Assembly (NCBI RefSeq): GCF_024734405.1
Contig: NZ_CP059556.1
Span: forward strand, 3,596,001-3,660,000
Origin: Saccharopolyspora gregorii
GTDB lineage: Bacteria; Actinomycetota; Actinomycetes; Mycobacteriales; Pseudonocardiaceae
Length of the DNA stretch: 64,000 nt
Direction: 5' to 3'
The notes under the pieces are model-generated. The model saw only the letters and a list, made by a program, of their open reading frames with translations. It searched no databases and was not told where the DNA came from. Both the position numbers and the translations under genes were made by a program. Below are positions 12,164 through 47,885 of this stretch, in pieces. Positions within the stretch are counted from its first letter, which is position 1, and each line of letters starts with the position of its first letter.

Positions 12164-12800
12164 TCACGGACGGCTGCTCTCCGGGCCCACGACCTTCGCT
12201 ACGCCGTGAGGCTGCTGACGAGTTCCGAACGAGCGCATGCGACGCAGGTGGCGCGGCAGGCCACGGAACGGGACCGGTCGTGGCCGAGCGTCGTCGCGGA
12301 AGTAGGCGTCCGAGCCTCCGTCGACGAACACGACGCTTCCCACCAGGAAGTCCGCGGCCTCGGAGCGCATGAACACCACCCGATCCGCGAGCTGCGAGGG
12401 ATCGCCGTAGCCACCGATCGGGACCGGGAACGACTTGATCGCGCCGGCCTGGGAGGCATCGGCCAACTGACCTTCCAGCAACGGGGTCAGGACGGCACCC
12501 GGAGCGAGAGCGTTGAGCCGGATCCCCGAACCCGCCGATTTCCCGGCAGCACCGCGTTGCGGCGCACCCAGCGGCTCAGCGCGATCTTGGAACCGGCGTA
12601 GAGCATCGCGGCAGCGGTTCTCCCGTACCACCGCACGCTGCGCAGCGCCTTGTCCGCGTCACCGGCCAGCAGTGCGCGAATCGCACGACCTCGCACCACG
12701 GGTGTCGTGGTCGTGGAGTTGCTGGAGAACACAACGACCTTGGCGTTGCCCGCGGCGGCCAGAGCGGGGCGCCACTGCCGCAGCAGCTCCACCGCACCGA
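12164..12800 (-). pseudogene. 3-alpha-hydroxysteroid dehydrogenase (HsdA-like SDR) remnant
   Basis: Two overlapping frames together read as the C-terminal two thirds of an HsdA-type SDR. The first (about 12792-12553) contains VVVFSSNSTTTT and YAGSKIALSRWVRRNA; the second (about 12542-12240) contains GSGIRLNALAPGAVLTPLLE and VVFVDGGSDAYFR. The insertion between the serine strand and the YxxxK motif, and the LNxxAPGA...TPLL block, are typical of 3-alpha-HSD/carbonyl reductase. The cofactor-binding N-terminus is missing and a frameshift lies near 12545-12553, so it is dead. It sits between recombinase 1 and the SDR operon and was probably its last gene, trimmed during island rearrangement. Confidence 0.7.
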
Positions 12801-12821
12801 TCGTGGAATTCGGGGCCTACG

Positions 12822-13682
12822 TCACGCATCCGGCTGGGCGACGAAGCGGCTCCGGAACGGCACCGGGGCACGACGTTCGACGAGCTGTTCAGCGCGGGAA
12901 CGCATGGCGCCTAGCACCATCTCCGGTTGCGTGACTATGTAGAACTCGCCCTGCGCGGCCTGATCCATGATCGTCTCGGCGGCCTCGGTAGGCGTGATCG
13001 CGCGCTCGCGGACCGCGAACATGTCACGGCGGTGCTGTTCTGCCGCGTCCACATCGCCGTGGTCAACGCCGCCGGCGCTGGTGAAGATGTCCGAGTCGAC
13101 CGCTCCGGGCAGCACGGCCGCGACGTTGATCTCCACGCCGAGGAGCCCGATCTCCTGGTGCAGGCATTCGGCGATGGCGAGCACGGCGTGCTTGCTCATG
13201 ATGTAGGACGACTGCATCGGCATGGACACCACCGAGCCGATGGAAGCCATCACCAGCACGTGTGCGCTTGCCGGGGCTGCGATCATGCCTGGGAGGAACG
13301 CCCGGGCGGTGTGGAACACGCCGTTGATGTTGACCTCCACCAACCGCTGCCAGCTGTCGGCAGGGGTGTCCCAGAGGTAGCCGAACTGCTGCAGTCCGGC
13401 GTTGGCGACCAGCAACCGCACCGGCCCCAGTTCGGCGCCCACCCAGTCGGCCATCGCCGCCATCGCCTCGGCGTCGCGCACGTCGACGACGTAGGGCACG
13501 CCGCGCCCGGGGGCAGGAAGTTCACCCGCCACCCGGCGCGCGGCGGCCTCATCGATGTCGGCGATCACGACCGTCATGCCCAGTCGTCCGGCCAGGTGGT
13601 GGGCCAGACCTTCGCCGATCCCGGCTCCCGCGCCGGTGACCACGGCCAGCCCGCCGCCGAAGAGCTCCTGCTGGGTCGCCAT
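12822..13682 (-). CDS. SDR oxidoreductase
   Basis: 286-aa classical SDR. Cofactor loop VTGAGAGIG, VANAGLQQFG, serine strand LVMASIGSVVSM and catalytic YIMSK are all present. ATG 13682 was chosen because the cofactor strand begins about 15 residues later. Fourth gene of a tightly spaced leftward operon (esterase, BVMO, SDR, SDR; gaps of 28, 28 and 14 bp), so it probably oxidises a hydroxyl produced or exposed by the BVMO/esterase pair. A 17-beta- or 3-hydroxysteroid dehydrogenase role is plausible but not demonstrable here. Confidence 0.82.
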   Translation of the reverse strand: MATQQELFGGGLAVVTGAGAGIGEGLAHHLAGRLGMTVVIADIDEAAARRVAGELPAPGRGVPYVVDVRDAEAMAAMADWVGAELGPVRLLVANAGLQQFGYLWDTPADSWQRLVEVNINGVFHTARAFLPGMIAAPASAHVLVMASIGSVVSMPMQSSYIMSKHAVLAIAECLHQEIGLLGVEINVAAVLPGAVDSDIFTSAGGVDHGDVDAAEQHRRDMFAVRERAITPTEAAETIMDQAAQGEFYIVTQPEMVLGAMRSRAEQLVERRAPVPFRSRFVAQPDA

Positions 13683-13696: not shown

Positions 13697-14455
13697 TCAG
13701 CGGGTTTGGCTGCCGCCGTTGAGGTCGATGGTCTGGCCGGTCAGCCAGCCCGCCTCCGGGGAGGCGAGGTAGATGACGGCGGCACCGGCGTCCTCCGGCG
13801 TACCGAGCCTCCCCGTCGGGATTCCCGCGGCGACCTCCTCGGTCCCGGTACCGCGCCCGGCGTTGCTCATCAGACCCAGCGCCAGCACGTTCGCCGTGAC
13901 GCCCGCGGACGCCTCTTCCTGGGAGATGTGGCGGATGAAGCCCTCCACACCGCTCTTGCCCGAGCCGTAGAGCGCCACACCCATGCTCAATCCGACGCGG
14001 CCCGCGCCGGAGGAGATCTGCACGATCCGCCCCCAGCCCGCCTCGCGCATGCCGGGCAGCACGGCGTGCACGCAGTTCATCGCGCCGAACAGGTTGATCT
14101 CCACGGGGGTGCGCCACTTCGCCGGGTCGAGATCGCGGAACGGGCCGTAACCCATGTCGCCGATGTCAGCGGGGATTCCCGCGTTGTTGACGAGCACGTC
14201 GACCGGTCCGCCGAGTTCCGCTCCTGCCTTGGCCACCCCGGCACGCACGCCGTCGAGATCGGTGACGTCGAAAGGCACCGGGACGGCTCGACCACCGGCC
14301 TGCTCGATCTGGGCGCAGGTCTCCTCGGCTCGGCCCGGTTCGAGATCGTTGACGGCGACCGCCGCGCCCTGACCCGCCAGCGCGCGGGCCATGCCGGCGC
14401 CTGCGTTGCGGCCCGCTCCGGTGACCAGCGCGATGTGGCCGGTGAAGTCGAACAT
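13697..14455 (-). CDS. SDR oxidoreductase with NAGAG cofactor loop
   Basis: 252-aa SDR. The usual TGxxxGxG loop reads TGAGRNAGAG, a variant seen in some FabG-like and hydroxysteroid dehydrogenases. NNAG, SSGAGRVG and YGSGK follow, and the C-terminus is the normal LTGQTIDLNGGSQ. Start ATG 14455. Lies 14 bp upstream of the next SDR and 28 bp after the BVMO, in the same leftward operon. Likely a steroid alcohol or ketone oxidoreductase by context; the exact position acted on is unknown. Confidence 0.82.
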   Translation of the reverse strand: MFDFTGHIALVTGAGRNAGAGMARALAGQGAAVAVNDLEPGRAEETCAQIEQAGGRAVPVPFDVTDLDGVRAGVAKAGAELGGPVDVLVNNAGIPADIGDMGYGPFRDLDPAKWRTPVEINLFGAMNCVHAVLPGMREAGWGRIVQISSGAGRVGLSMGVALYGSGKSGVEGFIRHISQEEASAGVTANVLALGLMSNAGRGTGTEEVAAGIPTGRLGTPEDAGAAVIYLASPEAGWLTGQTIDLNGGSQTR

Positions 14456-14483: not shown

Positions 14484-16436
14484 TCAGCGGTGCAGCAGCA
14501 GATCGTCGGGGTCGGGGGCGCGCAGCATCGTCCAGTAATCGACCAGGCGCCACGGGCAGGACACCCACGCTCGACCGGCGGCGTTGCGGTAGTAGCCGTT
14601 GGCCGTGCCCCCGTGCTGCCAGACGGTCCGGTCCAGCTCGGCGTCGACCCCGGCGTTGTAGGCGTCGGTGGCCTCGACGGTCGGTTCAGCGGCCGCGTGT
14701 CCCCCGTCGATGAGGAACCGCAAGGTCTCCACCGCGTAGTGCACGTGCTCCTCACTGGTCACGTTGTGCCCACCGCCGTGGTTCGGCGCCGAATTCGGCC
14801 CGGCCGTGACGAAGAAGTTCGGGAACCCCGGCACCGTGATGCCCAGGTAGGCGCGCGGATCGCGGCTGTGGTCCCACTTCTGGGCCAGCGTGACCCCGTC
14901 GCGGCCCACGACGTCGAGGAAGTTCAGGTACTCCAGCTTGAAACCGGTCGCCCAGATGATCACATCGGCTTCCAGGAACTCCCCGCTGGCCAGGTGCACG
15001 CCGTTGGGCTCGATCCTGTCGAAGGTCGTGCGGTGCAGCGCGACGTCCTCGCGGCGCGCAGCGGCGAGGAAGCCGGGGTCCTTGACGATGCGCTTGGCGA
15101 ACGGCGGGAAGTCCGGGGTCAGCATCTCGACCAGGTCGGGCCGGTCACCGAGCTCCTCGTGCAGGTGCTTCAAGCAGATCTGCATGAGCGCGTCGTTGGC
15201 CGGTGAGCAGGAGACGTGCTCGGCGTACCAGTCGGGGTCGATGCGAGGGATCTGGAAACCCTTGTCCGCGGTGAACCAGTGCGTCACCAGCCGGTACCAC
15301 TGGTGGAAGTACGGGATGTGCCGCAACGCCCATCGCACGTCCTCGTCCACTCCGGACACGACGTTGCGCTCCGGGGTGATCCAGTGCGGTTGCCGGAACA
15401 CCACGTCCAGGTGCTCGGCGCGTTCGGCGAGGTCGGCGACGACCTGCACGGCCGTGCACCCGGTGCCCAGGACCACGACGCGCTTGCCGTCGAGCTCGAC
15501 GGAATCGTCCCACTCGGCGGTGTGCATGGCCACGCCCTCGAAGCTCTCCGCCCCGGGGACCTCGGGGATGGAGGCGGCGTTGAGGATGCCGGTGGCGGTG
15601 ATGACGGCGTTGGCCTCGTAGACCTCCGGGGAACCGTCGGGGCCCTGCACGCGGACGTGCCACAGCAGCCGCTGCTCGTCCCACTCGCACCCCAGCACGC
15701 GCGACCGCAGCTCGACGTGGTCGCGGACCCCGTACTTGTCGGCCACGTGCCGCAGGTAGGCCATGTATTCCGGGCCCATCGGGTAGAACTTCGACCAGTC
15801 CGGGTTGAGCTCGAAGGAGTACGAGTAGAAGTGGCTCGGGGTGTCCACCGCGGCACCGGGGTAGGTGTTGCGCGACCAGGTGCCGCCGAGGTCGTCGGAC
15901 GCCTCGAAGACCCGGAACTCGATGCCGGCCTCGGCGAGCTCGACCGCCGCGTTGATGCCGACCATCCCGGCGCCCACTACGGCCACCCGGAAACCGTCCG
16001 GGACCGGGCGGTGCTCGGGTTCGGAGGCGGGAACCGGTGGGAAACCGGCTTGTTCCCGCAGGTAGGCCACGTACTCCGGGCCGATGTCGTCATCGGTGGC
16101 GACCCGGCTCATCTCCAGGAAGAGCTCGTCGTCGGGCACGCGCAGCTCGGGTACGAGCTCGGAGCTCAGCACCGCGCGAGCCCGGCGGCGCACCTCCTCT
16201 GCGACCTCGGCCGGGTACTCCCCCGGTGCCGACGCCGGTTCGGCCGCCTTCGCCTTCTCCAGCAGGGAGGCGAACTCGTCCAGCAGCGACCGGTCGCCGG
16301 TCAGGTGCACCAGCGTCATCAGCAGCGGTCCCGGGGCGACCGCGTCGATCGCCGCGTTCAGCCGTTCCGGGTCCGCGTCGTGGACCGCGTTGACCGCGCG
16401 GGTCGAGCGGTCCCCCGGAATCACCGACGTCGTCAT
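14484..16436 (-). CDS. Baeyer-Villiger monooxygenase (FAD/NADPH)
   Basis: 650-aa type I BVMO that would insert oxygen next to a ketone. An N-terminal extension of about 145 residues precedes the FAD Rossmann motif GAGMVG (155-160). The family fingerprint FxGxxxHxxxWD is present as FEGVAMHTAEWDD (near 299), followed by the NADPH site VLGTGCTAVQ and the late ATG-containing strand IIWATGFKLEYL. Start ATG 16436 follows the esterase stop by 28 bp. Next to an HSL-type esterase, the known logic (steroid monooxygenase plus esterase in Rhodococcus) is conversion of a 20-ketosteroid to a 17-acetate, then hydrolysis. That substrate is inference; cyclic-ketone oxidation is an alternative. Confidence 0.9.
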   Translation of the reverse strand: MTTSVIPGDRSTRAVNAVHDADPERLNAAIDAVAPGPLLMTLVHLTGDRSLLDEFASLLEKAKAAEPASAPGEYPAEVAEEVRRRARAVLSSELVPELRVPDDELFLEMSRVATDDDIGPEYVAYLREQAGFPPVPASEPEHRPVPDGFRVAVVGAGMVGINAAVELAEAGIEFRVFEASDDLGGTWSRNTYPGAAVDTPSHFYSYSFELNPDWSKFYPMGPEYMAYLRHVADKYGVRDHVELRSRVLGCEWDEQRLLWHVRVQGPDGSPEVYEANAVITATGILNAASIPEVPGAESFEGVAMHTAEWDDSVELDGKRVVVLGTGCTAVQVVADLAERAEHLDVVFRQPHWITPERNVVSGVDEDVRWALRHIPYFHQWYRLVTHWFTADKGFQIPRIDPDWYAEHVSCSPANDALMQICLKHLHEELGDRPDLVEMLTPDFPPFAKRIVKDPGFLAAARREDVALHRTTFDRIEPNGVHLASGEFLEADVIIWATGFKLEYLNFLDVVGRDGVTLAQKWDHSRDPRAYLGITVPGFPNFFVTAGPNSAPNHGGGHNVTSEEHVHYAVETLRFLIDGGHAAAEPTVEATDAYNAGVDAELDRTVWQHGGTANGYYRNAAGRAWVSCPWRLVDYWTMLRAPDPDDLLLHR

Positions 16437-16464: not shown

Positions 16465-17418
16465 TCACCACGGCAGCGGGTGGGCGACCTTCGCGCGCAG
16501 GACACCGGCGATCTCGGCCAGTGCTTGTCTGCCGCGCGCCAGGTGGTGGAGCTGCATCAGGAACCCGTGGCCGACGCCCGGATACCGGGTGAAGGTGGTC
16601 TGCACACCGGCGTCGCGCAGCCGCTCGGCGTAGCGCTCGGACCAGTCCCGGAGCGGGTCCATCTCCCCCACCGCCACGATCGCCTGCGGCAGTCCGCTCA
16701 GGTCGGGGGCGTAACAGGGCACCTCGTCCGGGCCGGTCGGGTCGGGTTCGCCCGCGCGGGCGAGTTCGTGCAGGTAGAACACGTCGTCACGGGTCAGGCC
16801 AGGACCATCGGCGAATTCCTGGACCGAGGGCGCGGCCATGTCCCGGTCGAGTCCGCCGTACATCAGGACCTGGCAGAACAACTGCGGTCCGCGGTCACGG
16901 GCGCGCAGCGCCACGAGCGCGGCCAGGGTGCCGCCCGCGCTGTCGCCCGCCACCGTGATGTGTTCGGCGCGCACGCCCAGTTCCCGGGCATGCGCAGCCA
17001 CCCATGCGGTCGCTGCGCAGGCATCGTCGACCTGGGTCGGCGGTGGGTGCTCCGGCGCGAGCCGGTAGTCCACGGCGAAGACTCGATGCCCAGTGTCGGC
17101 GGCGATGGCTCGGGCGAAGGGCTCGAAGGAGTGGTTGCTGCCCATGACCATGCCGCCGCCGTGGAAGTACACGATCGCCGGGAGTTCCTCGTCCTCGGTC
17201 GGGCTGTAGATCCGCAAGGCCACGGTGCCCACACCGCTGGGGATCTCCCGGTCCTCGACCGCTGCCATCTTCGCCATGTCCGGCGGGTGCGGCAGCTGCT
17301 CCAGGCCCGCGCGGACCGCTTCCAGGCCGATCTCGCGCATCGTCCCCGCGCGCTGGGACCGGCGCTGCCGGTCCAGCGCCGCGAGATCCGGATCCAGGGC
17401 CGGGATGTGTACCGCCAT
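16465..17418 (-). CDS. Alpha/beta hydrolase esterase, HSL family
   Basis: 317-aa cytoplasmic esterase of the hormone-sensitive-lipase family. It has the oxyanion-hole motif YFHGGGMVMG, nucleophile elbow GDSAGGT, acid in VGEMDPLRDW and histidine in YPGVGHGFLM. It is the first gene of the operon with the BVMO and two SDRs and is the natural candidate to hydrolyse the ester the BVMO makes. A CCCGCTGATCGGG palindrome lies 72 bp upstream of its start. Confidence 0.9.
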   Translation of the reverse strand: MAVHIPALDPDLAALDRQRRSQRAGTMREIGLEAVRAGLEQLPHPPDMAKMAAVEDREIPSGVGTVALRIYSPTEDEELPAIVYFHGGGMVMGSNHSFEPFARAIAADTGHRVFAVDYRLAPEHPPPTQVDDACAATAWVAAHARELGVRAEHITVAGDSAGGTLAALVALRARDRGPQLFCQVLMYGGLDRDMAAPSVQEFADGPGLTRDDVFYLHELARAGEPDPTGPDEVPCYAPDLSGLPQAIVAVGEMDPLRDWSERYAERLRDAGVQTTFTRYPGVGHGFLMQLHHLARGRQALAEIAGVLRAKVAHPLPW

Positions 17419-17489
17419 CGACCTGCCTCTCCTCGTTGACCAAGCGGGTCAGAGTCTTGCGGCTCCCGACCGGTCCGGCTCGTGCGATT

Positions 17490-17502
17490 CCCGCTGATCG
17501 GG
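17490..17502. promoter_or_regulatory. Steroid-box palindrome upstream of the esterase operon
   Basis: CCCGCTGATCGGG, one base from the CCCGCTCATCGGG boxes found upstream of hsaB and between kshA and hsaA. It lies 72 bp upstream of the esterase start and just downstream of the truncated kstD, where a promoter for the BVMO operon is expected. Confidence 0.5.
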
Positions 17503-17517
17503 ACACCTGTTCGCCGG

Positions 17518-17861
17518 TCACACCCGCGTGCGCATGTCGAGTGCGGCGAGGTGGTAGTCGATGAGGGCGGCACCGGTGTCCAGAAATGCGTCCTGCACGG
17601 CGGGTGGGGTGCGATCACCGACGACGGCCCGGAAGTAGGTCCTCGCGTCCTCCACCGTGTCCTGATCCCCGGCCCGCTTGAGCGCCGCGTTGCACGGAAA
17701 CCACAGTCCCCCACCGGAACAGGCAGTCGTACCGCCGAGGTGACCGGCGGCCTCGACCACGACGACCGACAGACCCTCCCTGGAAGCCGGGTAGGCCCCC
17801 GTCAGAGCGCCGCCGCCCGGATCCCACGAAGCACATCGCGCTCATCCCATGCCACGCTCAT
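17518..17861 (-). pseudogene. Truncated KstD (N-terminal fragment)
   Basis: Reads as the first roughly 110 residues of a 3-ketosteroid delta-1-dehydrogenase: MSVAWDERDVL, then an indel, then the FAD region GGALTGAYPASREGLSVVVV, GGTTACSGGGLWFPCN and YFRAVVGDRTP. Full KstD proteins are over 500 aa; this stops at 17518 after ALDMRTRV. The ATG at 17861 overlaps the hsaB stop (ATGA), so an hsaB-kstD pair was once coupled. The catalytic and substrate domains are gone. A complete KstD-like gene is present at 32.9-34.6 kb. Confidence 0.75.
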
Positions 17862-18424
17862 CGCAGCGCCTCCTGCTCGTCTCTTGAGGACGCGACATCG
17901 AGGTCGTGACGGCCTCGGTAGAAAAGCAGGGGCCGTCCCCCGCGTTCGGCGCGCAAGGAGGTGACGCGGCCGACGACGATCTCGTGGTCCCCGCCATCGT
18001 GGATCGACTCGATCTGGCAATGGATCCAGGCCAGAACGCCGTCCAGCAGCACTTCACCCGCTGGGCCGCTCCGCCAGTCGACGGCGTCGAACTTCGATCC
18101 TCCGCTGGATCCGAAAGCCGCGCAGACCGCGCCCTGGTGTTCCGCCAGGACGTTGACCGTGAACCGGCCGCCTGCGCGGATGCGCGGCCAGCTCGTCGAA
18201 CCCCGGCCCGGGCAGATCAACACCAGCGGCGGATCCAACGACACCGCGCTGAAGGACTGGCAGGCGAACCCGCGGGGTCGGCCGCCTCCGATCCCGGCAA
18301 CGATGGTGATCCCCGTGCAGAAGCGGCCGAGCACGTCGCGGTACTCATCCGGCGGAATCAACGTTTCCCCTCTCACCGCGGTCGATCTCATCTGATCGTC
18401 GGTTCTCGCGGGGAGGGAGACCAT
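17858..18424 (-). CDS. hsaB: Flavin reductase component HsaB
   Basis: 188-aa NADH:FMN/FAD reductase that supplies reduced flavin to HsaA, the 3-HSA 4-hydroxylase. Diagnostic strings are LGRFCTGITIV, RGFACQSFSAVSLDPPLVL, GGRFTVNVLAE, IHDGGDHEIVVG and PLLFYRG, which match mycobacterial HsaB closely. Start ATG 18424 has GGGAG five bases upstream, and that ribosome site overlaps the CCCGCTCATCGGG palindrome. It is separated from hsaA by 3.7 kb and is followed by the truncated kstD with a 4-bp overlap. Confidence 0.9.
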   Translation of the reverse strand: MVSLPARTDDQMRSTAVRGETLIPPDEYRDVLGRFCTGITIVAGIGGGRPRGFACQSFSAVSLDPPLVLICPGRGSTSWPRIRAGGRFTVNVLAEHQGAVCAAFGSSGGSKFDAVDWRSGPAGEVLLDGVLAWIHCQIESIHDGGDHEIVVGRVTSLRAERGGRPLLFYRGRHDLDVASSRDEQEALR

Positions 18425-18431
18425 CAGTTCT

Positions 18432-18444
18432 CCCGCTCATCGGG
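18432..18444. promoter_or_regulatory. Steroid-box palindrome at hsaB
   Basis: CCCGCTCATCGGG, identical to the left half of the inverted pair at 22061-22097. It lies eight bases upstream of the hsaB start and overlaps its ribosome binding site, so a bound regulator would block transcription or initiation. Confidence 0.6.
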
Positions 18445-18509
18445 CAGCATCGTGCTGAAATGAGCGAGCGGGGCGGCCCATCCGGTCCGCCCCGCCGCAT
18501 CAACGCCGG

Positions 18510-19433
18510 TCACCGAAGCGCGGCGAGATCCTCCGCGGTCAGCCGCCACCGCGCGGCGGAGACGTTGGCGCGCACCTGCTCAGGACGGGTCGCCCCGGTG
18601 ATCACCGAGCTCACACCTCGCTGCGCGACGAGCCAGGCCACCGCCAGTTCCAGGATCGTGTGGCCTCGTTCCTCGGCGAACGCGGTCAACCGCTCGACCT
18701 CGTCGAAGTTGTCGTCGCTGACGACCTTGTCCGCCAGGAAGCTCAGCTTGTCGAACCGGCTTCCTTCGGGAAACGCTTCGCCCTTGCGGTACTTTCCCGT
18801 CAACAAGCCCGAAGCCAGCGGGAAGTACGGCACCACGCCCAGCCCGCACTGCGACGCGGCAGGCACGATCTCGGTTTCGACACCGCGGTTGAGCAGGTTC
18901 CACTCGATCTGCGTTCCGGTGAACCGCGCCACCGACCTCTGCAGGGACACCTCGGCGGAGCGGTTGATCTGGTCGGCCGAGACGTTCGACGAAGCCACGT
19001 GCAGCACCTTGCCGGTGCGCACCAGCTCGTCCAACGCCTCCAGCGCCTCGTGTTCCGGTGCCTCGGTGTCCGGGTAGTGCTGGTAGTAGACGTCGATCCG
19101 GTCGGTGCGCAACCTCCGCAAGCTGCCCTCGCACGCCTCGCGGATCCGCTTGGCCAAGGCACCCGGTGCGTACGGCTCCTCTGGGGGCCTCGGCAGGAAC
19201 TTCGTCGCGATCACCACGTCATCGCGACGCGAACCCAAGCACTCCCCGATGATCTCCTCCGACCGGCCGCCGCCGTACATCTCGGCGGTGTCCAGGTGCG
19301 TGATGCCGGCTTCCAACGCCGCGTCCAGCACCGCTCGGGAGTCCTCCAACTCCAGCTTCATGCCGAAGTTGTTGCACCCCAGGCCGATCACGGACAACTC
19401 CGGCCCATCGGTTCCGAGCCGACGCTTCTCCAT
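18510..19433 (-). CDS. Aldo/keto reductase
   Basis: 307-aa AKR with the full catalytic tetrad: Asp48 and Tyr53 in HLDTAEMYGGG, Lys78 in VIATKFLP, His119 in YYQHYPD. The late NADP-binding block SSVITGATRPEQV is also present. Start ATG 19433; the upstream open frame belongs to another reading frame of kshB. Last gene of the leftward kshA-small protein-kshB operon (14-bp gap). By context it may reduce or oxidise a keto/hydroxy group of the steroid; some AKRs are 3-alpha-HSDs, but this one has the general actinobacterial AKR pattern. Confidence 0.87.
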   Translation of the reverse strand: MEKRRLGTDGPELSVIGLGCNNFGMKLELEDSRAVLDAALEAGITHLDTAEMYGGGRSEEIIGECLGSRRDDVVIATKFLPRPPEEPYAPGALAKRIREACEGSLRRLRTDRIDVYYQHYPDTEAPEHEALEALDELVRTGKVLHVASSNVSADQINRSAEVSLQRSVARFTGTQIEWNLLNRGVETEIVPAASQCGLGVVPYFPLASGLLTGKYRKGEAFPEGSRFDKLSFLADKVVSDDNFDEVERLTAFAEERGHTILELAVAWLVAQRGVSSVITGATRPEQVRANVSAARWRLTAEDLAALR

Positions 19434-22060: not shown

Positions 22061-22097
22061 TGTTCCCGCTCATCGGGATCCTCCCGATGAGCGGGAA
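22061..22097. promoter_or_regulatory. Perfect inverted pair of steroid boxes between kshA and hsaA
   Basis: A 17-bp arm at 22061-22077 (GTTCCCGCTCATCGGGA) is repeated exactly in inverted form at 22081-22097, three bases apart. Each arm contains the 13-bp near-palindrome CCCGCTCATCGGG. It lies about 100 bp from the kshA start and 83 bp from the hsaA start, in the middle of a divergent promoter region. Single copies or variants occur at 17490, 18432, 25212 and 38584. Confidence 0.75.
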
Positions 22098-25177: not shown

Positions 25178-25212
25178 GAGGCCCGCGGCGTCTCCCGACC
25201 GCCGCGGGCCTC
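25178..25212 (+). terminator. Hairpin after hsaC
   Basis: GAGGCCCGCGGCG (25178-25190) is perfectly complementary to CGCCGCGGGCCTC (25200-25212), loop nine bases. There is no T-run. It lies 22 bases after the hsaC stop and abuts a regulatory palindrome before hsaG, so it may partly terminate the hsaADC transcript. Confidence 0.5.
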
Positions 25213-25224
25213 CCGCTGAGCGGG
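25212..25224. promoter_or_regulatory. Steroid-box palindrome upstream of hsaG
   Basis: CCCGCTGAGCGGG, a perfect palindrome about a single central base, 43 bp before the hsaG start. Its half-sites CCCGCT and AGCGGG occur in the kshA/hsaA operator, consistent with the same regulator controlling hsaGFE. Confidence 0.5.
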
Positions 25225-25267
25225 CAGGAACCCGCTACAGCGCCGTCGGGGATGTGAAAGTGCCGTC

Positions 25268-38510: not shown

Positions 38511-38583
38511 GCGCAATGGTCCTCCCGCACGCTGCCCCACGACCGGACCGCGGTGGACCGGCTCAACGGAATCACGGGTGTGG

Positions 38584-38596
38584 TCCGATGAGCGGG
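38584..38596. promoter_or_regulatory. Steroid-box variant upstream of the DegT-family gene
   Basis: TCCGATGAGCGGG matches CCCGATGAGCGGG (right arm of the kshA/hsaA operator) at 12 of 13 positions. It is about 90 bp upstream of the DegT-family start. If bound by the same regulator, it would tie this gene to the steroid regulon and not to the adjacent LacI unit. Confidence 0.4.
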
Positions 38597-38686
38597 ACAC
38601 CCCACCCCACGGCATGGCATCGCCTCATAACGTCCAGCGCGCTTCGGTCACGCAAGTGCGTCGACCGGCGTTCAAGGAGGTTCGAG

Positions 38687-40920: not shown

Positions 40921-41027
40921 TTGCACGTGCTAGTAGCGCCGACGGTAACAGGTTCGACTCACGCAGATCGCGTACTTGCACGTGCTAGTAATCACGCACT
41001 AGCCTCCCCGGAACTATCACGTGCTAG
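40921..41027. promoter_or_regulatory. Three LacI-type boxes (CACGTGCTAG)
   Basis: TTGCACGTGCTAGTA occurs at 40921-40935 and 40976-40990; CACGTGCTAG recurs at 41018-41027. The core GCACGTGC is palindromic. The first box abuts the LacI start and the last is 27 bp before the MFS start, so the three span the divergent promoter region. Spacing of boxes 1 and 2 is 55 bp and of boxes 2 and 3 about 40 bp, which would permit looping. Confidence 0.75.
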
Positions 41028-41053: not shown

Positions 41054-42379
41054 ATGAAGGCAGAAAACGGCCCCGAAGTCTCCGCTCCGTCCCCCATCCC
41101 CACCAAGGTGACGCCCTCACCTGATGCACCGACCAGCGGCGGAGAGCAGCCTCCCGTCTCCTCCCGCTACATCTGGCTCATGGTCGTCGCGCAGTTCGGC
41201 GTGTTCCTCGCGCTCATCACACCGATCGCCGTCTCCCTCTCCATCCGCGTCAACCAGCTCGCCCCCGGACACGAGGAATACCTGGGCTACGTCACCGGAG
41301 TGGGAGCCGCGGTCTCGGTTATGGTCGGACCGCTGCTCGGGGTCCTCTCGGACCGCACCCGCAGTCGGCTCGGCCGGCGCAAGCCCTTCCTCATCGCCGG
41401 CCTGGTGCTCGGACCGATCTCACTGGTCGTGATCGCACTGGCGCCCTCCATGATCGTGCTGGCGGTCGGCTGGATCATGAGCCAGGTGACGTGGGGACTC
41501 GCTCTCGGCGGCCTCACCAATTCGATGGCCGACCGCGTCCCGGAACAGCAGCGCGGACGCCTCGCGGGGTTCGTCGGTTTCGTCAACCTGGTCGCCCCCG
41601 TGGCCGGCGTCGGCATCAGCAGCGGATTGGCCGGCAACAACCTCCTGTTGTTCGGCGTCCCCGGCCTGCTCGGAGCCCTCCTGCTGGCCCCGTTCATCCT
41701 CCTCGTCCCCGAGTCCGACAGCCGGAACATGCCCGACATGGGTCGGCTCTCCCCGGGCACCGTGCTCGGCAAGTACGTGTTCAACCCGGCGCGCTACCCG
41801 GACTACTCGTTGAACCTCCTGGGGCGCGCGCTGTTCTACTTCGGACTCACCTTGTGCACCACGTTCACGGCCTTCTTCCTCGCTTCTCGGATGGGCGTGG
41901 GGGTGCAAAACGTGGCCGGCACGATGGCCGTGCTCTCCGCGCTCGGCGTGGTGGCCACCGCGATCGGTGCGCTGGGGAGCGGATTCCTGTCCGACCGCTT
42001 GCGGCGTCGCCGCGCCTTCGTCCTGGCGTCGGGGATCCTGTTCGGGCTCGGCTCGGTCGGGATGGCGCTGTCGCCGACCGTGCCGCTACTGTTCGCCTCC
42101 CAGCTCACCACGTCCCTGGCTCTCGGCATGTTCTCGTCGGTGGACCAGGCGCTGGCACTGGACGTGCTGCCGGAGCGCGCCACCAACGCGGGTCGGTTCA
42201 TGGCCATCTTCGGCCTCACCGCCAGCATCCCGCAGTCCGTCGCGCCGCTGGTGGCCCCGGTCTTCCTGACGATCGGCGTCGCCGCGGGCCAGAAGAACTA
42301 CCCCCTGCTGTTCGCGATCGCCGGCGCGTTCACCGTGCTCGGCGGCATCGTGATCACCCGAATCAGGTCAGTGCGTTGA
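41054..42379 (+). CDS. MFS transporter (sugar/glycoside-type)
   Basis: 441-aa integral membrane protein with about 12 predicted helices after a hydrophilic, proline-rich N-terminus of about 35 residues. The MFS loop motif is GVLSDRTRSRLGRRKPFL after helix 2, with a related GFLSDRLRRRRAF in the second half. ATG 41054 was chosen because the residues before it are not family-like. First gene of the LacI-controlled operon with GH78 and GH3, so it presumably imports the intact glycoside, which is then hydrolysed inside the cell. Confidence 0.9.
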   Translation: MKAENGPEVSAPSPIPTKVTPSPDAPTSGGEQPPVSSRYIWLMVVAQFGVFLALITPIAVSLSIRVNQLAPGHEEYLGYVTGVGAAVSVMVGPLLGVLSDRTRSRLGRRKPFLIAGLVLGPISLVVIALAPSMIVLAVGWIMSQVTWGLALGGLTNSMADRVPEQQRGRLAGFVGFVNLVAPVAGVGISSGLAGNNLLLFGVPGLLGALLLAPFILLVPESDSRNMPDMGRLSPGTVLGKYVFNPARYPDYSLNLLGRALFYFGLTLCTTFTAFFLASRMGVGVQNVAGTMAVLSALGVVATAIGALGSGFLSDRLRRRRAFVLASGILFGLGSVGMALSPTVPLLFASQLTTSLALGMFSSVDQALALDVLPERATNAGRFMAIFGLTASIPQSVAPLVAPVFLTIGVAAGQKNYPLLFAIAGAFTVLGGIVITRIRSVR

Positions 42380-42393: not shown

Positions 42394-44871
42394 TTGCCCA
42401 TCGATCAGCAGGCGGGATTCATCACCGCCCCGTTCGGCGACTGGACCCGGCCCGGCGCCGCGGCGCCGTACTTCCGCCGCGAGTTCCAGGCGCCGAGCGC
42501 CCCCGTCAGAGCCGTGCTGCAGGTCAGCGCGATCGGGCTCGTCGAACCGCACCTCAACGGGTCCCCGGTCGGCGACGAGGTCCTCGCGCCCGGTTGGACG
42601 TCGTACCGTCACCGGCTGGCCGTCTCGCACTACGACGTCACCGGGAGAATCGCCACGGGTCCCAACGTCATCGGCGCGATCCTCGGCGAGGGATGGGCCG
42701 TCGGGCGCCTGGGTTTCGAAGGACGGCGCAACCACTACAGCGACCGGCCCGCCTTGTTCCTCCGCCTCGAGCTCGACTACGGCGACCACACCGAGATCAT
42801 TGGCAGCGACCAGGAGTTCCAAGTCTCCACCGGTGCCGTGCTGAGCAACGACCTCTACGACGGCGAAAGCCACGACGCCAGGCTGGAACCCCGCGGATGG
42901 GACCAACCCGGTTTCGACGCCGCCAAGTGGAGCCCAGCCGAGCCCTTCGAGTGGAACCTCGACGCTCTCATCGACACGGGCGCACCGCCGATCCGCCGGA
43001 TCGAGGAGATCGATCCGGTCGACGTGGCGACGAGCCCGAGTGGCAAGACGATCCTCGACTTCGGACAGAACATCTCGGGCCGCGTGCGCTTCACCGTCAC
43101 CGGCAAGGCCGGCCAAACGGTTCAGCTGCGGCATGCCGAGGTCTGCACCGGCGGCGAGATCGACACCGAAACCCTGCGCACGGCCGTCGCCACCGACCGC
43201 TACGTGCTGCGCGGCGGAGGGACCGAGACGTGGGAGCCGAGGTTCACCTTCCACGGGTTCCGCTACGTCGAGCTCGGCGGCGATGTCGAGCCCGACAAAC
43301 TGCGCGCCGTCGTGCTCCACAGCGACATGCCCCGCACCGGGTGGTTGGAGACCTCCGACGACCGGTTGAACCGGTTGCACGCCAACGCCGTCTGGTCCAT
43401 GCGGGACAACTTCGTCGGGGTCCCGACCGACTGCCCGCAGCGCGACGAGCGGCTGGGATGGACCGGTGATCTCAACGCCTTCGCACCCGCGGCGAGCTTC
43501 CTGCACGACGTGCGCGGCGTCCTCGACTCCTGGCTGGCCGACCTGGCCGCCGAGCAGCGGGAGAAGGGGTACGTGCCGTGGGTCGTGCCCGACGTGCTCT
43601 CGACTCCGTCACCTCCGACCGCGTTGTGGAGCGACGTCGCCGTCAGCCTCCCCTGGGCCCTCTACCGCGAGTACGGCGACGCGGAGATCCTCCGCCGGAG
43701 CTACCCGTCGATGACGACGTTCATCCGGGACGTGGCCGACCGGCTCGACGACAACGACTTGTGGAGCACCGGTTTCCAGTTCGGTGACTGGCTCGACCCC
43801 GATGCCCCGATGGACAACCCCGCCGGCGGCAAGACCGACCGGCACCTGGTGGCGCAGGCGTTCCTGTGCAAGACCACGCGCGAGATGGCGCTGGCCGCCG
43901 AAGTCCTGGGCGAGGACACGACCGAGTTCGCGCAGCTCGCCGACCGGGTGCGCACCGCGTTCCGCCGCGAGTACGTCACCCCGTCAGGACGGATCTCCGG
44001 GGAGACCGCGACCGCCTACGCACTGGCGATCCGCTTCGGCATCCTCGATGACGACCAGCGGACCACGGCGGGCGACCGACTCGCCGAGCTGGTCGCCAAG
44101 GACGGCTACCGGATCGCCACCGGCTTCGCCGGGACGCCGCACGTCACCGCAGCCCTGTCGGAGACCGGGCACCTGGAAGAGGCCTACCTGCTGCTCACCG
44201 AGACCGGCTGTCCCTCGTTCCTCTACCCCGTGACCATGGGTGCGACGACGATCTGGGAACGATGGGACTCCATCCGCCCGGACGGAACCATCAACCCCTC
44301 CGGCATGACCTCGCTCAACCACTACGCGCTCGGCGCCGTGGTGGACTGGATGCACCGGGTCATCGGCGGCCTGGAAGCGGATGAACCGGGCTACCGCAGC
44401 ATGATCATCGCGCCGCAGCCCGGCGGTGGTCTCACCCGCGCGAAGGTCGATCACGACACCCCGCACGGCCGTGCGTCCGTGGCCTGGCGCATCACTGACC
44501 AGCGGATGCGCGTGGAGGTGAGCATCCCCGCGGGCACCACGGCCACCGTGGTGCTTCCCCTCGACCCGGAGGCGCGCGTCGAGCGCGTGGCCGGAGGTGA
44601 GCACCTCTGGGAGTACGCCCTTCCCGAGGACGTCTCGGCCGAGCGACACACGATGGACACCCCGTTGCAGACGCTCGCGAAAGACCCCGCCGTCTGGCGA
44701 GACCTCACGGCCGTGTTCGCCGAGCACCTGCCGGGCATCCCCATCGACGGCACCGCACCCGAAGCCGCGGGCATCTCGCTGAACGGCCTCCTGCAGCACA
44801 TCCCGGGCGCCTCCCCCGACTTCGAGTCGGACCTCCGCGACGCACTCGGCCACCAGAAAGGACGATCATGA
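42394..44871 (+). CDS. GH78 alpha-L-rhamnosidase
   Basis: 825-aa intracellular (no signal peptide) glycosidase that removes terminal L-rhamnose. N-terminal beta domains contain VEPHLNGSPVGDEVLAPGWT and ILGEGWAVGRLGFEGRR; the barrel's acid region is DCPQRDERLGWTGD (346-359, acid probably Glu352) and the base region is TTIWERWDSI; the C-terminal beta domain is TPHGRASVAWRI. I chose TTG 42394 because GGAG lies five bases before it; another TTG at 42376 overlaps the MFS stop. The stop overlaps the GH3 start (ATGA), coupling the two enzymes. Confidence 0.93.
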   Translation: MPIDQQAGFITAPFGDWTRPGAAAPYFRREFQAPSAPVRAVLQVSAIGLVEPHLNGSPVGDEVLAPGWTSYRHRLAVSHYDVTGRIATGPNVIGAILGEGWAVGRLGFEGRRNHYSDRPALFLRLELDYGDHTEIIGSDQEFQVSTGAVLSNDLYDGESHDARLEPRGWDQPGFDAAKWSPAEPFEWNLDALIDTGAPPIRRIEEIDPVDVATSPSGKTILDFGQNISGRVRFTVTGKAGQTVQLRHAEVCTGGEIDTETLRTAVATDRYVLRGGGTETWEPRFTFHGFRYVELGGDVEPDKLRAVVLHSDMPRTGWLETSDDRLNRLHANAVWSMRDNFVGVPTDCPQRDERLGWTGDLNAFAPAASFLHDVRGVLDSWLADLAAEQREKGYVPWVVPDVLSTPSPPTALWSDVAVSLPWALYREYGDAEILRRSYPSMTTFIRDVADRLDDNDLWSTGFQFGDWLDPDAPMDNPAGGKTDRHLVAQAFLCKTTREMALAAEVLGEDTTEFAQLADRVRTAFRREYVTPSGRISGETATAYALAIRFGILDDDQRTTAGDRLAELVAKDGYRIATGFAGTPHVTAALSETGHLEEAYLLLTETGCPSFLYPVTMGATTIWERWDSIRPDGTINPSGMTSLNHYALGAVVDWMHRVIGGLEADEPGYRSMIIAPQPGGGLTRAKVDHDTPHGRASVAWRITDQRMRVEVSIPAGTTATVVLPLDPEARVERVAGGEHLWEYALPEDVSAERHTMDTPLQTLAKDPAVWRDLTAVFAEHLPGIPIDGTAPEAAGISLNGLLQHIPGASPDFESDLRDALGHQKGRS

Positions 44872-47099
44872 CCGACTCGACGCGTCTCTCCCTCGACCAG
44901 AAGGCCGCCCTGCTGTCAGGGCAGGACTTCGCACACACCAAGCCCGTCGACGAGGCAGGCGTTCCCGCCCTCACGCTCGTCGACGGTCCGCACGGGCTCC
45001 GCGTCCAAGACGCCGACCAGGACCACCTCGGGGTGCACGAAAGCCGACCTGCCACCTGCTTCCCACCGGCGGTCGCCGTCGGATCCAGCTGGGACCCCGA
45101 CGTCGCCGGCAGCGTGGGCGAGGCCGTGGGCCGCGAAGCCCGGGCCGCCGGGGTGGCGGTCAACCTCGGACCAGGCGTCAACATCAAGCGCTCCCCGCTG
45201 TGCGGCCGCAACTTCGAGTACTACTCAGAGGATCCGCTGCTGTCCGGTGTGCTCGGTACGGCTCATGTCCGCGCGCTTCAGAGCCAGGGCGTCGGGGCCT
45301 CCGTCAAGCACTTCGCGGCCAACAACCAGGAGACCGAGCGCATGCACGTCAGCGCCGAGGTCGACGAACGCACCCTGCGCGAGATCTACCTCCCGGCCTT
45401 CGAACGCGTCGTCACCCAGGCCGACCCCGCGACGGTGATGTGCTCCTACAACCGCATCAACGGCGTCGCCGCGTCCCAGAACCGGTGGCTCCTGACGGAG
45501 GTCCTGCGCGACGAGTGGGGGTTCGAGGGCGTCGTGATCTCCGACTGGGGCGCCGTCTACGACAAGCTCGCCTCGCTCCTGGCCGGGCTCGACCTGGAGA
45601 TGCCGGGATCCGGCGGTAAGAACGACGTCCGGCTCGTCGAGGCCGTCTGCAGCGGAGAGGTCCCCGAATCCCGCGTCGACGAGGCCGTCCAGCGCGTCCT
45701 CACCCTCACGCGGCACCACACCGAGCCCACCGGTCGATTCGACGCGGACGAACACCACGCTCTAGCGCGCCGCCTGGCCGCGGAATGCGCCGTGCTGCTC
45801 AAGAACGACCGGCAGAGCCTTCCGCTCGCCCATGACGCCGAGGTGGCGGTGATCGGCGAGTTCGCCCGTGCTCCGCGATTCCAGGGAGGCGGCAGCTCGC
45901 ACATCAACCCCACGCGCGTGCAGAGCGCTCTGGACTCCCTGCGCGAGCTCGGCACGAACGTCACCTACGCACCCGGGTTCCACCTCGACGGCTCGCCGGA
46001 CGAGTCGCTCAGGTCGGAAGCCGTCAGCGCGGCCAGGGCCGCCGATGTCGCGGTCGTCTTCGCCGGACTCCCCGATGCTCACGAGTCCGAGGGCTACGAT
46101 CGGGACACCCTCGATCTGCCCGCGGATCAGATCGCCACGATCCGGGCAGTGGCGGACGCCGCCGCCCGCACGGTCGTGGTCCTCTCGCACGGCGGAGTCG
46201 TCTCCCTGGAGGGGTGGCACGACGACGTCGACGCCATCCTCGACGGGTTCCTGCTGGGCCAGGCCGGCGGTGGTGCACTCGCGGACCTGCTGCGCGGCGA
46301 GGTGAACCCGTCCGGCCACCTGGCGGAGAGCATCCCCCTACGCCTCCAGGACAACCCGACATACCTCAACTTCCCCGGGGAGCAGGGCCACGTCCGGTAC
46401 GGCGAAGGTGTCATGGTTGGCTACCGCTACTACGAGACCGCGCAGGTCCCGGTCCGGTACCCGTTCGGCCACGGGCTGTCCTACACGACCTTCGAGACCG
46501 TCGATCTGACGGTGACCACGACCGGGCCGGACACCGCAACGGCTTCGGTCACCGTCACCAACACCGGCAGCCGTTCCGGCAAGCACGTCGTCCAGCTCTA
46601 CGTCGCCACCGACGCAGGCCCCGTGCGCCGCCCGGTCCGCGAGCTGCGCGCCTTCACCAAGGTCGCGCTCGAACCGGGCCAGACCCGCACCGTTGAGCTG
46701 GAACTGGACTCCCGCGCCTTCGCCTACTACGACATCGAAGCCGGCCGCTGGGTGACCACCCCGGGTGACTACACGGTTCAGGTCGGCCTCAGCGCGGGTG
46801 ACGTGGTCGCGGAGCAGCGCATCTCGCTCGACGGCGAGGTGATCCGCAAGGAGCTCACCCTCGACTCGACGGTCCAGGAGTGGTTCGGGCATCCCGAAGT
46901 CGGTCCGCGATTCCTCGACTGGATCACCGCAGGAATGGGCGAGCAGCAGGTTCACGACCCCGACCGGAGCACCGGCGAGCTGCGCATGATCGATTCCCTT
47001 CCGCTGCACCAGTTCCTGAACTTCCTCGAAGGCTTCGGTGGCGGTGTTCCCGCCGAGGAGATCGAGGAGCTCATCCAGCTCAGCAAGACCACCGACTGA
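44868..47099 (+). CDS. GH3 beta-glucosidase
   Basis: 743-aa family 3 glycoside hydrolase. The TIM-barrel domain has KHFAANNQETERMHVSAEVD and the catalytic nucleophile Asp226 in GVVISDWGAVYDK; the alpha/beta sandwich follows (VAVIGEFARAPRFQGGGSS), then a C-terminal fibronectin III-like domain (YPFGHGLSYTTFE). No signal peptide, so it acts inside the cell after the MFS importer. Together with GH78 it would take a rhamnosyl-glucosyl chain off an aglycone. Confidence 0.93.
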   Translation: MTDSTRLSLDQKAALLSGQDFAHTKPVDEAGVPALTLVDGPHGLRVQDADQDHLGVHESRPATCFPPAVAVGSSWDPDVAGSVGEAVGREARAAGVAVNLGPGVNIKRSPLCGRNFEYYSEDPLLSGVLGTAHVRALQSQGVGASVKHFAANNQETERMHVSAEVDERTLREIYLPAFERVVTQADPATVMCSYNRINGVAASQNRWLLTEVLRDEWGFEGVVISDWGAVYDKLASLLAGLDLEMPGSGGKNDVRLVEAVCSGEVPESRVDEAVQRVLTLTRHHTEPTGRFDADEHHALARRLAAECAVLLKNDRQSLPLAHDAEVAVIGEFARAPRFQGGGSSHINPTRVQSALDSLRELGTNVTYAPGFHLDGSPDESLRSEAVSAARAADVAVVFAGLPDAHESEGYDRDTLDLPADQIATIRAVADAAARTVVVLSHGGVVSLEGWHDDVDAILDGFLLGQAGGGALADLLRGEVNPSGHLAESIPLRLQDNPTYLNFPGEQGHVRYGEGVMVGYRYYETAQVPVRYPFGHGLSYTTFETVDLTVTTTGPDTATASVTVTNTGSRSGKHVVQLYVATDAGPVRRPVRELRAFTKVALEPGQTRTVELELDSRAFAYYDIEAGRWVTTPGDYTVQVGLSAGDVVAEQRISLDGEVIRKELTLDSTVQEWFGHPEVGPRFLDWITAGMGEQQVHDPDRSTGELRMIDSLPLHQFLNFLEGFGGGVPAEEIEELIQLSKTTD

Positions 47100-47114
47100 C
47101 GATCAGGAGTCCAC

Positions 47115-47885
47115 ATGCAACGCTTCACCGACCGCAAGGTGCTTCTCACCGGGGGCGCGTCAGGGATCGGCCGCGCCACGGTCCTGCGACTGCTCGCCGA
47201 AGGCGCCGACGTCGTCGCGGCCGATCTCTCCGAGGAGGGCCTGGCAGGCACCACCGAGCACGCCGTGCAGGCCGGTACCGATTCCCGCCTTTCCACGGTG
47301 GTCCTCGACATCGCCGACGAAGCCGCCGTGGATCAGGCGGTGCTCAACGCCGTCGAGCGCTTAGGCGGCCTCGACGTGCTGGTCAACGCCGCGGGGATGC
47401 TGCGCGGCGGCCACACCCACGAGTTCTCCCTGGACTTGTGGAACCACATCCTCGCCGTCAACGCGACCGGCACGTTCCTGCTGACCAGGGCCGCGCTGCC
47501 CGCGCTGCTCGACAGCGGACGCGGAGTGATCGTCAACTTCAGCTCCACCTCGGCGAGCTTCGCGCACCCGTTCATGGCCGCCTACTCGGCCAGCAAGGGC
47601 GCGGTGGAGTCCTTCACCCACGCCATCGCCCTCGAATACGCCAAGCGAGGCCTGCGCGCGGTCTCGATCAAGCCGGGCAGCATCTCGAGCGGTATCACCA
47701 ACAACATCTACGAGTACATGCCCGTCGACACCGATTGGTCGCTGATGAGCAAGCTCAGCCCGGCCCTCGGTGACGGCTTCGCAGACCCGGAATCCGTAGC
47801 AGGCGTGGTCGCCATGCTCGCCTCCGACGACGGCAGCTTCATCACGGGCACCGAGATCAGAATCGACGGCGGAACTCACGCCTGA
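47115..47885 (+). CDS. SDR oxidoreductase in the glycoside operon
   Basis: 256-aa SDR. LLTGGASGIGRATVL, LVNAAGMLRGG, FSSTSASFAHP and YSASK give a complete catalytic core; the C-terminus ITGTEIRIDGGTHA is standard. It lies 15 bp after the GH3 gene and is followed by a strong terminator, so it is the last gene of the operon. It may oxidise the hydroxyl that is freed when the sugar is removed; a 3-hydroxysteroid dehydrogenase activity would fit, but sequence cannot prove it. Confidence 0.85.
   Translation: MQRFTDRKVLLTGGASGIGRATVLRLLAEGADVVAADLSEEGLAGTTEHAVQAGTDSRLSTVVLDIADEAAVDQAVLNAVERLGGLDVLVNAAGMLRGGHTHEFSLDLWNHILAVNATGTFLLTRAALPALLDSGRGVIVNFSSTSASFAHPFMAAYSASKGAVESFTHAIALEYAKRGLRAVSIKPGSISSGITNNIYEYMPVDTDWSLMSKLSPALGDGFADPESVAGVVAMLASDDGSFITGTEIRIDGGTHA

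Follow-up and report, generated by a model that had tools for sequence, protein, structure and literature searches.

Two described systems are precedents for joining sugar removal to steroid catabolism in bacteria: that of Sphingobium sp. RC1, which degrades tomatine, solanine and dioscin (PMC10653915, in part), and the glycoalkaloid cluster of glycoside hydrolase (GH) families GH2, GH3 and GH78 (PMC9597252, in part). The locus considered here lies in a 64,000-nucleotide stretch of the Saccharopolyspora gregorii chromosome (the window; contig NZ_CP059556.1, positions 3,596,001 to 3,660,000) and is a 37,632-bp element, at window positions 10480-48111, in which GH78 and GH3 genes accompany genes for opening steroid rings A and B. 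Judged by its gene content and by related loci, the element probably carries a catabolic pathway for a rhamnosylated or glucosylated steroid (or closely steroid-like) glycoside, a reading to which we give a probability of roughly 0.7. If correct, this would tie actinobacterial steroid clusters that have had no known substrate, including one on plasmid pRHL1 of Rhodococcus jostii RHA1, to rhamnosyl or glucosyl glycosides, and their purpose would become testable in laboratory strains with defined compounds. It would also mean that deglycosylation and ring cleavage are carried as one recombinase-borne element.

Like the element, Sphingobium sp. RC1 has GH3 and GH78 enzymes together with steroid enzymes, in its case a 3beta-hydroxysteroid dehydrogenase and a 3-ketosteroid delta4-dehydrogenase whose gene lies near the GH genes. 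RC1 differs in being an alphaproteobacterium, in having GH genes on both its chromosome and a plasmid, and in possessing GH39 and GH106 enzymes as well; no single integrative element is described in the excerpted text of that report (PMC10653915). The clusters of Arthrobacter S41 and Glutamicibacter halophytocola S2 likewise pair GH3 with GH78 in actinobacteria, and their GH2 recalls a GH2 gene seen near relatives of the window's P450 genes in Kibdelosporangium and Lentzea alba. The S41 and S2 clusters deglycosylate glycoalkaloids to solanidine, and ring-opening genes are not mentioned in the excerpts of PMC9597252, which cites Hennessy 2018/2020. The actinobacterial cholesterol and cholate 9,10-seco clusters share the Ksh/KstD/HsaA-G logic of the element. 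Unlike them, the window has glycosidases, a LacI regulator and a major facilitator superfamily (MFS) transporter, its HsaA-D fall below equivalog cut-offs, and no Mce genes were found among the 33 island open reading frames (ORFs) scanned. The Baeyer-Villiger step of progesterone degradation (pdc cluster, PMC12239570, in part) is matched by a Baeyer-Villiger monooxygenase (BVMO) related to steroid monooxygenase with an adjoining esterase gene, although the window enzyme has 650 residues, of which about 140 at the N terminus are extra, and its steroid substrate is a prediction. An earlier note on this DNA knew of no described mobile element with this combination. A literature search, with most subscription journals outside it, found none; the pairing of GH78 and GH3 with steroid enzymes is itself already published, for Sphingobium (PMC10653915, in part).

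The cargo is one discrete mobile insertion in tRNA-Leu(gag) (10393-10479, plus strand). The last 25 bp of this tRNA gene (10455-10479, plus strand), GGGGTTCAAGTCCCCCCTCGGACAC, form the proximal attachment (att) copy and recur exactly at 48087-48111 (plus strand), the distal end of the element. The 22-bp core of the repeat has these two matches only in the 6.34-Mb genome when up to two mismatches are allowed. Beside the proximal copy is the gene for a large serine recombinase with Resolvase, Recombinase and Zn ribbon domains (10484-12124, minus strand). Its product is 38% identical to a second recombinase (48092-49918, minus strand), which starts at the distal att copy and is part of an older, adjoining element. 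In a sister species (G137) the intact tRNA-Leu runs directly into the sequence that follows att copy 2 in the window, and the recombinase there is 94% identical to the second recombinase. Since G137 has the same junction without the element, 10480-48111, lying between tRNA-Leu(gag) and the older element, is a single insertion. The earlier note had placed an island between two att copies, which the exact repeats and the empty site bear out; its interval of 12164-47885 fell within that island and left the first recombinase outside, the true start being at the tRNA. Related serine recombinase genes occupy the same locus in all five sister genomes, adjoining an att core in G137, G101, G120 and G079 (in G079 a distal copy, some 109 kb off) and lying about 4 kb from it in G046, and the element's P450 is absent from the five sister-genus genomes at E<=1e-100. 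A Pfam scan of the 33 island ORFs (E<=0.001) turned up neither a relaxase nor a transfer family, which sets the island apart from integrative conjugative elements and means that cell-to-cell transfer would need help; one island regulator gave a Replic_Relax match below the Pfam cut-off.

Gene families in the element were assigned by Pfam and NCBIfam scans, with comparison to the Protein Data Bank (PDB) for the best solved relatives. All seven components of a 9,10-seco cluster are present as full-length open frames. Four are on the minus strand: an HsaB-type flavin reductase (17858-18424), a KshB-type reductase (19448-20452), KshA (20761-21963) and the 3-ketosteroid delta-1-dehydrogenase KstD (32859-34565; 970.3 bits against a cut-off of 793). 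The best solved relative of KshA is 4qdc (642 bits), which we take to be KshA5 of R. rhodochrous, followed by 4qdf_B and 2zyl at 559 bits each. The plus strand encodes an HsaA-type oxygenase (22180-23364), an HsaD-type meta-cleavage product hydrolase (23394-24272) and an HsaC-type extradiol dioxygenase (24269-25156), as well as an HsaG-type acylating aldehyde dehydrogenase (25283-26176), an HsaF-type aldolase (26173-27201) and an HsaE-type hydratase (27198-27986). HsaF and HsaG exceed their own family cut-offs. Scores below the NCBIfam equivalog cut-offs were obtained for HsaA (391.6 versus 450), HsaB (215.2 versus 230), HsaC (345.4 versus 450) and HsaD (287 versus 400), and HsaE reached 239.7 bits where the best hydratase model has a cut-off of 408.8. 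The name KshB has no family cut-off behind it and is taken from domain order, adjacency to kshA and 57% identity to the neighbour of kshA on the host chromosome.

Genes with a possible part in remodelling side chains form two further groups, both on the minus strand. The first, referred to below as the P450 block, encodes a ferredoxin reductase (FdR, 28003-29223), a 2Fe-2S ferredoxin (Fd, 29220-29537), a cytochrome P450 (29569-30783), the short-chain dehydrogenase/reductase (SDR) SDR3 (30801-31694) and a protein of the SMP-30/gluconolactonase family (SGL, 31724-32650). The second consists of SDR1 (12822-13682), SDR2 (13697-14455), the BVMO (14484-16436), whose best solved relative is annotated as steroid monooxygenase (4aos, 205 bits), and an esterase or lactonase of the Abhydrolase_3, hormone-sensitive-lipase type (16465-17418). 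An aldo/keto reductase (AKR) gene (18510-19433, minus strand) lies next to kshB. The sugar-related genes occupy the other end of the element and comprise LacI (39912-40901, minus strand) and, all on the plus strand, the MFS transporter (41054-42379), a GH78 alpha-L-rhamnosidase family protein with four Pfam rhamnosidase domains (42394-44871), a GH3 glycosidase family protein (44868-47099) and SDR4 (47115-47885). GH78 and GH3, an importer and a regulator are thereby linked to steroid genes. The family scans agree with what had been read from the letters alone for the LacI-associated MFS, GH78 and GH3 genes and for Ksh/KstD/HsaA-G, the BVMO, the esterase, the P450 with its redox partners and the SGL protein, KshB being supported by context. 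The count of seven or more SDR and AKR genes was too high, as there are five intact ones (SDRs starting at 12822, 13697, 30801 and 47115, and the AKR at 18510) and one truncated SDR. A GH78 remnant, a pyridoxal phosphate (PLP) enzyme of DegT/ColD type, the remnant of a second KstD and two operator systems had been overlooked.

The P450 block recurs in other actinobacteria. A scan with peptide patterns on genome contigs, which was not exhaustive, yielded 77 stretches, of which 24 were confirmed as P450 loci; SGL and SDR3 lie beside the P450 in all 24, and ferredoxin and its reductase in 23. A KstD copy of at least 63% identity was present in 10 of the 20 genomes searched for it (all but those of L066, L068, L070 and L079). 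Clusters were read in seven of these ten, namely S. flava and six fetched genomes, with G206, G210 and G215 left aside. The six fetched clusters, of which 60-80 kb each were read, had been preselected for a close KstD in the genome; KstD (66-70%) and KshA (61-68%) surround the P450 in every one (Nocardia flavorosea, N. paucivorans, Williamsia, Gordonia, Rhodococcus sp. HM1 and Trebonia), HsaA and HsaC are present in five, and none of the stretches read matched the glycosidase queries. Among the 24 loci, five have a glycosidase match within about 10 kb of the P450 (L057, L058, L059, L060 and L079) and a sixth, L063, has a weak GH42-like gene near it; the glycosidases of S. flava and Kibdelosporangium lie beyond that distance, and none was found within it at the 11 loci of Nocardia, Rhodococcus, Gordonia and Williamsia (L066-L075 and L078). 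A gene like that for delta4(5alpha)-ketosteroid dehydrogenase occurs within 10 kb of the P450 in 4 of the 24 loci, and the one such protein compared scored 782 bits against 4at0. The SGL-SDR3-P450-Fd-FdR block is present in Streptomyces turgidiscabies Car8.

The plasmid pRHL1 carries the P450 block with KstD and KshA. An A/B-ring steroid cluster has been reported from this plasmid, with its function, if any, given as unknown and its genes as most similar to the cholate pathway (PMC4810484, in part); the cluster at 944-983 kb is presumably the same one, judging from the plasmid and the gene content. It shares with the window the order SGL-SDR3-P450-Fd-FdR, the BVMO, the esterase, KshA/KshB, HsaA-G and KstD, at 35-79% identity, and is likewise on a mobile replicon. 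In contrast to the window, it shows no match to LacI, MFS, GH78 or GH3 across the 50 kb covered, possesses an old yellow enzyme (OYE) gene and a delta4-ketosteroid dehydrogenase-like gene (46%), neither of which was found in the window, and contains only two matches to the palindrome described below, each with two mismatches. The window has the SGL-SDR3-P450-Fd-FdR order with KstD (at least 65%), KshA and HsaA/C/D; no glycosidases were detected in the pRHL1-type clusters read elsewhere, whereas GH78 and GH3 are present in both the window and S. flava, which makes the window cluster a variant of the pRHL1 type and not a plain member. Several ring enzymes are closer to those of such orphan clusters than to the host's chromosomal copies: KstD at 65-70 versus 48%, HsaA at 58-74 versus 41% and HsaC at 57-73 versus 47%. 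HsaF and HsaG are 79 and 78% identical to the pRHL1 proteins versus 59 and 66% to those of the host, and are not closer to the other clusters. KshA was rejected as a marker of orphan clusters, as it is 69% identical to the host chromosomal copy versus 61-68% to theirs. The element is, in short, a glycosidase-equipped, recombinase-borne version of the orphan actinobacterial steroid cluster.

Glycosidases are recurrently associated with the P450/BVMO/SGL part of the locus, an association supported by a scan of 200 genomes of the family for GH78. At most four candidates were scored per genome, and the counts are lower bounds. GH78 matches occur in at least 88 of the 200 genomes and the P450 (E<=1e-100) in six, and in all six a GH78 gene lies 6.8-25.1 kb from the P450. 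The chance of this is 3e-11 if the genomes are treated as independent and 1e-5 if they are treated as three lineages, with a 26-kb limit that was chosen after the distances were known. Among the matches listed, the four closest relatives of the window's GH78 (66-99%) are all near the P450 block. Eleven weaker relatives (43-53%) have no P450 block in their 20-kb surroundings, stretches shorter than the 26-kb limit, a shortfall covered by the absence of the P450 at E<=1e-100 from their genomes. In Goodfellowiella, MFS, GH78 and GH3 genes are followed on the same strand by the aglycone genes, and the GH3 stop codon overlaps the next start. In Kibdelosporangium, GH2, two GH3, GH1 and MFS genes lie between GH78 and the aglycone operon.

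Saccharopolyspora flava DSM 44771, which the genome collection places in another genus, has a near-complete copy of the cargo. DNA identity is 96.3% for DegT-LacI-MFS-GH78-GH3-SDR4, 94.8% from hsaG to the MarR gene, 90.9% from SDR1 to the esterase, 86.5% from kshA to hsaC and 79.3% from hsaB to kshB; as identity differs block by block, the two copies are mosaic. The S. flava cluster extends into genes for OYE, acyl-CoA dehydrogenase and CoA-transferase and has a second KstD. The 95 kb surveyed around this cluster showed no tRNA and no relative of either recombinase.

Two kinds of operator-like site are present in the element. A pattern search for the palindrome TCCCGCTCATCGGGA, with up to two mismatches, gave seven matches in the window versus 0.3 expected from 20 first-order Markov shuffles, and all seven are within the island and intergenic, although intergenic sequence makes up 7.3% of the island. 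They stand before esterase-BVMO (17489-17503, plus strand), before hsaB (18431-18445, plus strand), as a pair between kshA and hsaA (22064-22096), before hsaG (25211-25225, minus strand), before SGL-P450 (32836-32850, plus strand) and before the DegT-like gene (38583-38597, minus strand), their centres 14-193 bp from the esterase-BVMO, hsaB, kshA, hsaA, hsaG, SGL-P450 and DegT-like starts. In S. flava eight were found versus 0.8 expected, seven of them before the corresponding operons and none before hsaG. The second kind consists of three LacI-operator-like sites at 40921-41026, with TTGCACGTGCTA at 40921 and 40976 and TATCACGTGCTA at 41015. Lentzea fradiae has LacI-type sites not only at LacI and at MFS-GH78-GH3 but also 202 and 244 bp ahead of an aglycone operon. 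Three other regulators are encoded in the element: an IclR regulator (35382-36185, minus strand), a TetR regulator (36331-36963, plus strand) and a double MarR-type helix-turn-helix regulator (36999-38000, plus strand). IclR is a candidate for binding the steroid palindrome; no match to the palindrome was found in the stretch upstream of its own gene.

The DNA gives gene content, boundaries, synteny and operator-like sites directly, and from these we infer the reactions, substrate, cell location and induction in the following scheme. The MFS transporter would import the intact glycoside, from which cytoplasmic GH78 and GH3 would remove rhamnose and glucose, and LacI would be released by the glycoside or its sugars. 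SDR and AKR enzymes may then oxidise the 3-hydroxyl group, after which KstD and KshAB would open ring B, HsaAB, HsaC and HsaD would open ring A, and HsaE, HsaF and HsaG would channel the resulting fragment to central metabolism. The P450, SDR3, SGL, BVMO, esterase and SDR1/2 could remodel a C-17 side chain or a D-ring substituent. The element covers rings A and B only, and rings C and D are left to host genes. A host Ksh/KstD/Hsa cluster lies near 3.41-3.42 Mb, next to a FadD3 gene whose product scores above its cut-off. A CoA-transferase pair, accompanied by thiolase and acyl-CoA-dehydrogenase-like genes, is found near 3.36 Mb and has no specific family match. From gene order and sequence we take this pair to resemble ipdABC, and the C/D-ring acid would presumably pass to FadD3 and these ipdABC-like chromosomal genes.

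Several observations weigh against a dedicated pathway for a steroid glycoside. The host chromosome already codes for Ksh, KstD and Hsa enzymes, KshA, HsaB and HsaD of the element group clearly with neither the orphan clusters nor the host, and HsaE is closer to the host's. The window lacks an intact second KstD and the OYE, acyl-CoA dehydrogenase and CoA-transferase genes of the S. flava cluster, and the pathway may therefore be incomplete. Among the clusters read, glycosidases and linked ring genes occur together only in the window and S. flava. The GH78 near the Kibdelosporangium block is about 40% identical to the window's and is hence not the same gene. No KshA was found in Goodfellowiella (best match 40 bits), which has GH78, GH3 and the P450 block, and no KstD at E<=1e-80 in Allonocardiopsis, which has GH1, GH2 and GH3 near the block, so that the block also occurs in genomes apparently incapable of this ring opening. 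LacI-type sites occur in the window at LacI and MFS only, and palindromes at the steroid and DegT-like gene starts only; from these different predicted operators the two halves of the element seem to be separately switched, unlike in L. fradiae. No LacI-type sites were found near the L. alba, Trebonia and Nocardia-type clusters, and no good ones in Kibdelosporangium. The absence of KshA from Goodfellowiella and the differing operators in the window mean that a steroid aglycone is not proven. The rhamnosylated or glucosylated steroid proposed in the earlier note, favoured by the recurrent glycosidase-P450 linkage and by the position of the block within steroid-ring clusters, is, at this strength, the substrate class that fits best.

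The best-surviving alternative is that the two halves are independent cargo, a LacI-MFS-GH78-GH3 operon for flavonoid or general rhamnoglucosides sharing the element with the steroid cluster by chance. GH78 and GH3 enzymes also act on flavonoid glycosides, GH78 is as common in the family as the scan indicates, the operator-like sites in the window are separate, and ring genes and glycosidases are unlinked in the stretches read from Lentzea, Kibdelosporangium and Goodfellowiella. Chance association fits poorly with the presence of the P450 block near all four of the closest GH78 relatives listed, the 11 weaker ones being without it, with the coupled genes of Goodfellowiella and with the LacI-type sites at the L. 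fradiae aglycone operon, and we consider it unlikely. Somewhat more doubtful is a division of labour in which the glycosidases, P450, BVMO and SGL serve the glycoside of a terpenoid other than a steroid, such as a triterpenoid, while Ksh/KstD/Hsa serve another compound, a steroid. The Goodfellowiella block without KshA suits this idea, as does the lack of KstD (E<=1e-80) in Allonocardiopsis, Goodfellowiella and Actinomadura kijaniata despite their block, and an SDR, a BVMO and an Abhydrolase_3 esterase together resemble monoterpene ketone pathways. The Goodfellowiella copy has an apparent internal deletion, however, and may be decayed. Moreover, Ksh/KstD/Hsa clusters enclose the block in the six fetched genomes and on pRHL1, which weakens a monoterpene-type reading of the SDR-BVMO-esterase set, and a single palindrome type precedes SGL-P450 and kshA/hsaA in both the window and S. 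flava. Least probable is a variant of the cholate pathway for animal-type steroids such as bile acids or pregnanes, without plant glycosides, which accords with the likening of the pRHL1 genes to that pathway (PMC4810484, in part) and with the CoA-transferase and paired acyl-CoA dehydrogenase genes of related clusters, but leaves the recurrent GH78, GH3, GH2 and GH1 genes beside the block unexplained.

Within the preferred reading, that of a steroid glycoside pathway, a place may exist for the DegT/ColD-like PLP enzyme (38687-39895, plus strand). Its closest PDB relative is CDP-4-keto-6-deoxyglucose-3-dehydrase (189 bits), and in its SFAMAH motif a histidine aligns with His220 of that sugar 3-dehydrase, which we take to be the position of the lysine in aminotransferases. 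The protein is without most of the residues that we believe to be the Fe-S cysteines, and at 254.7 bits against a cut-off of 423 it is a relative of RfbH and not an RfbH. The histidine is kept in all ten distinct sequences compared (window, S. flava, N. flavorosea, A. kijaniata and six more), and a histidine in place of lysine suggests dehydroxylation. In the window, S. flava, N. flavorosea and G269 the gene is part of a steroid cluster. A steroid role for the enzyme is weakened by its occurrence away from steroid genes on a plasmid of R. erythropolis R138 and by the stretches containing it in G503, G321, G513 and G482, where no clear steroid cluster was found; because it is also found without linked steroid genes, dehydroxylation beside a ketone is put forward as a hypothesis. 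The element might in that case encode a full pathway for plant steroid glycosides in which the PLP enzyme removes a hydroxyl group next to the steroid ketone so that KstD can act, for example the 2-hydroxyl beside the 3-ketone of polyhydroxylated sapogenins or ecdysteroids. This extended version is rather unlikely; it would place a PLP enzyme in steroid catabolism and, if true, PLP dehydroxylation would constitute a new kind of steroid deoxygenation, and pRHL1-type orphan clusters would gain a natural substrate class. Relatives of about 51% identity are found on Ensifer and other plasmids. On the R138 plasmid, from potato hydroponics, an 81.5% identical relative stands beside a VOC gene, and no steroid ring genes were found within 20 kb of it.

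The remaining features of the element are mostly gene fragments, all on the minus strand. A truncated SDR gene (12164-12631) retains only the C-terminal part and has a 79% match in S. flava. The second-KstD remnant (17521-17817) matches residues 7-101 and 486-503 of a 503-residue S. flava gene, an internal deletion having left only its ends. A C-terminal GH78 remnant (38001-38516) is 46% identical to the intact GH78 over 59 residues and has no counterpart at the same place in S. flava, where there is a VOC gene instead. The gene at 34583-35215 encodes a 210-residue protein that has no match in Pfam or NCBIfam and is nearly identical in S. flava, with no or one difference depending on the start residue.

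Beyond the distal att copy, the older element extends from 48087 to about 81225 in window numbering and has its own serine recombinase. It seems to end near 81.2 kb, where a degenerate att (5 of 25 positions mismatched) is found and similarity to G101 resumes. It brings another catabolic cargo, with acyl-CoA-dehydrogenase-like, thiolase, CoA ligase, metallo-beta-lactamase-fold, SDR and enoyl-CoA hydratase genes, and its thiolase is 62% identical to the host thiolase near the CoA-transferase pair. In L. fradiae, a tRNA-Leu(gag) at 5704-5787 of the stretch L029 lies about 2 kb before the glycosidase/aglycone cluster; a second att copy was not found over roughly 75 kb of downstream sequence, and the cluster is not claimed as an island. 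In L. alba, two recombinases that are 61-63% identical to the element's are encoded about 1 and 18.5 kb past the last glycosidase gene.

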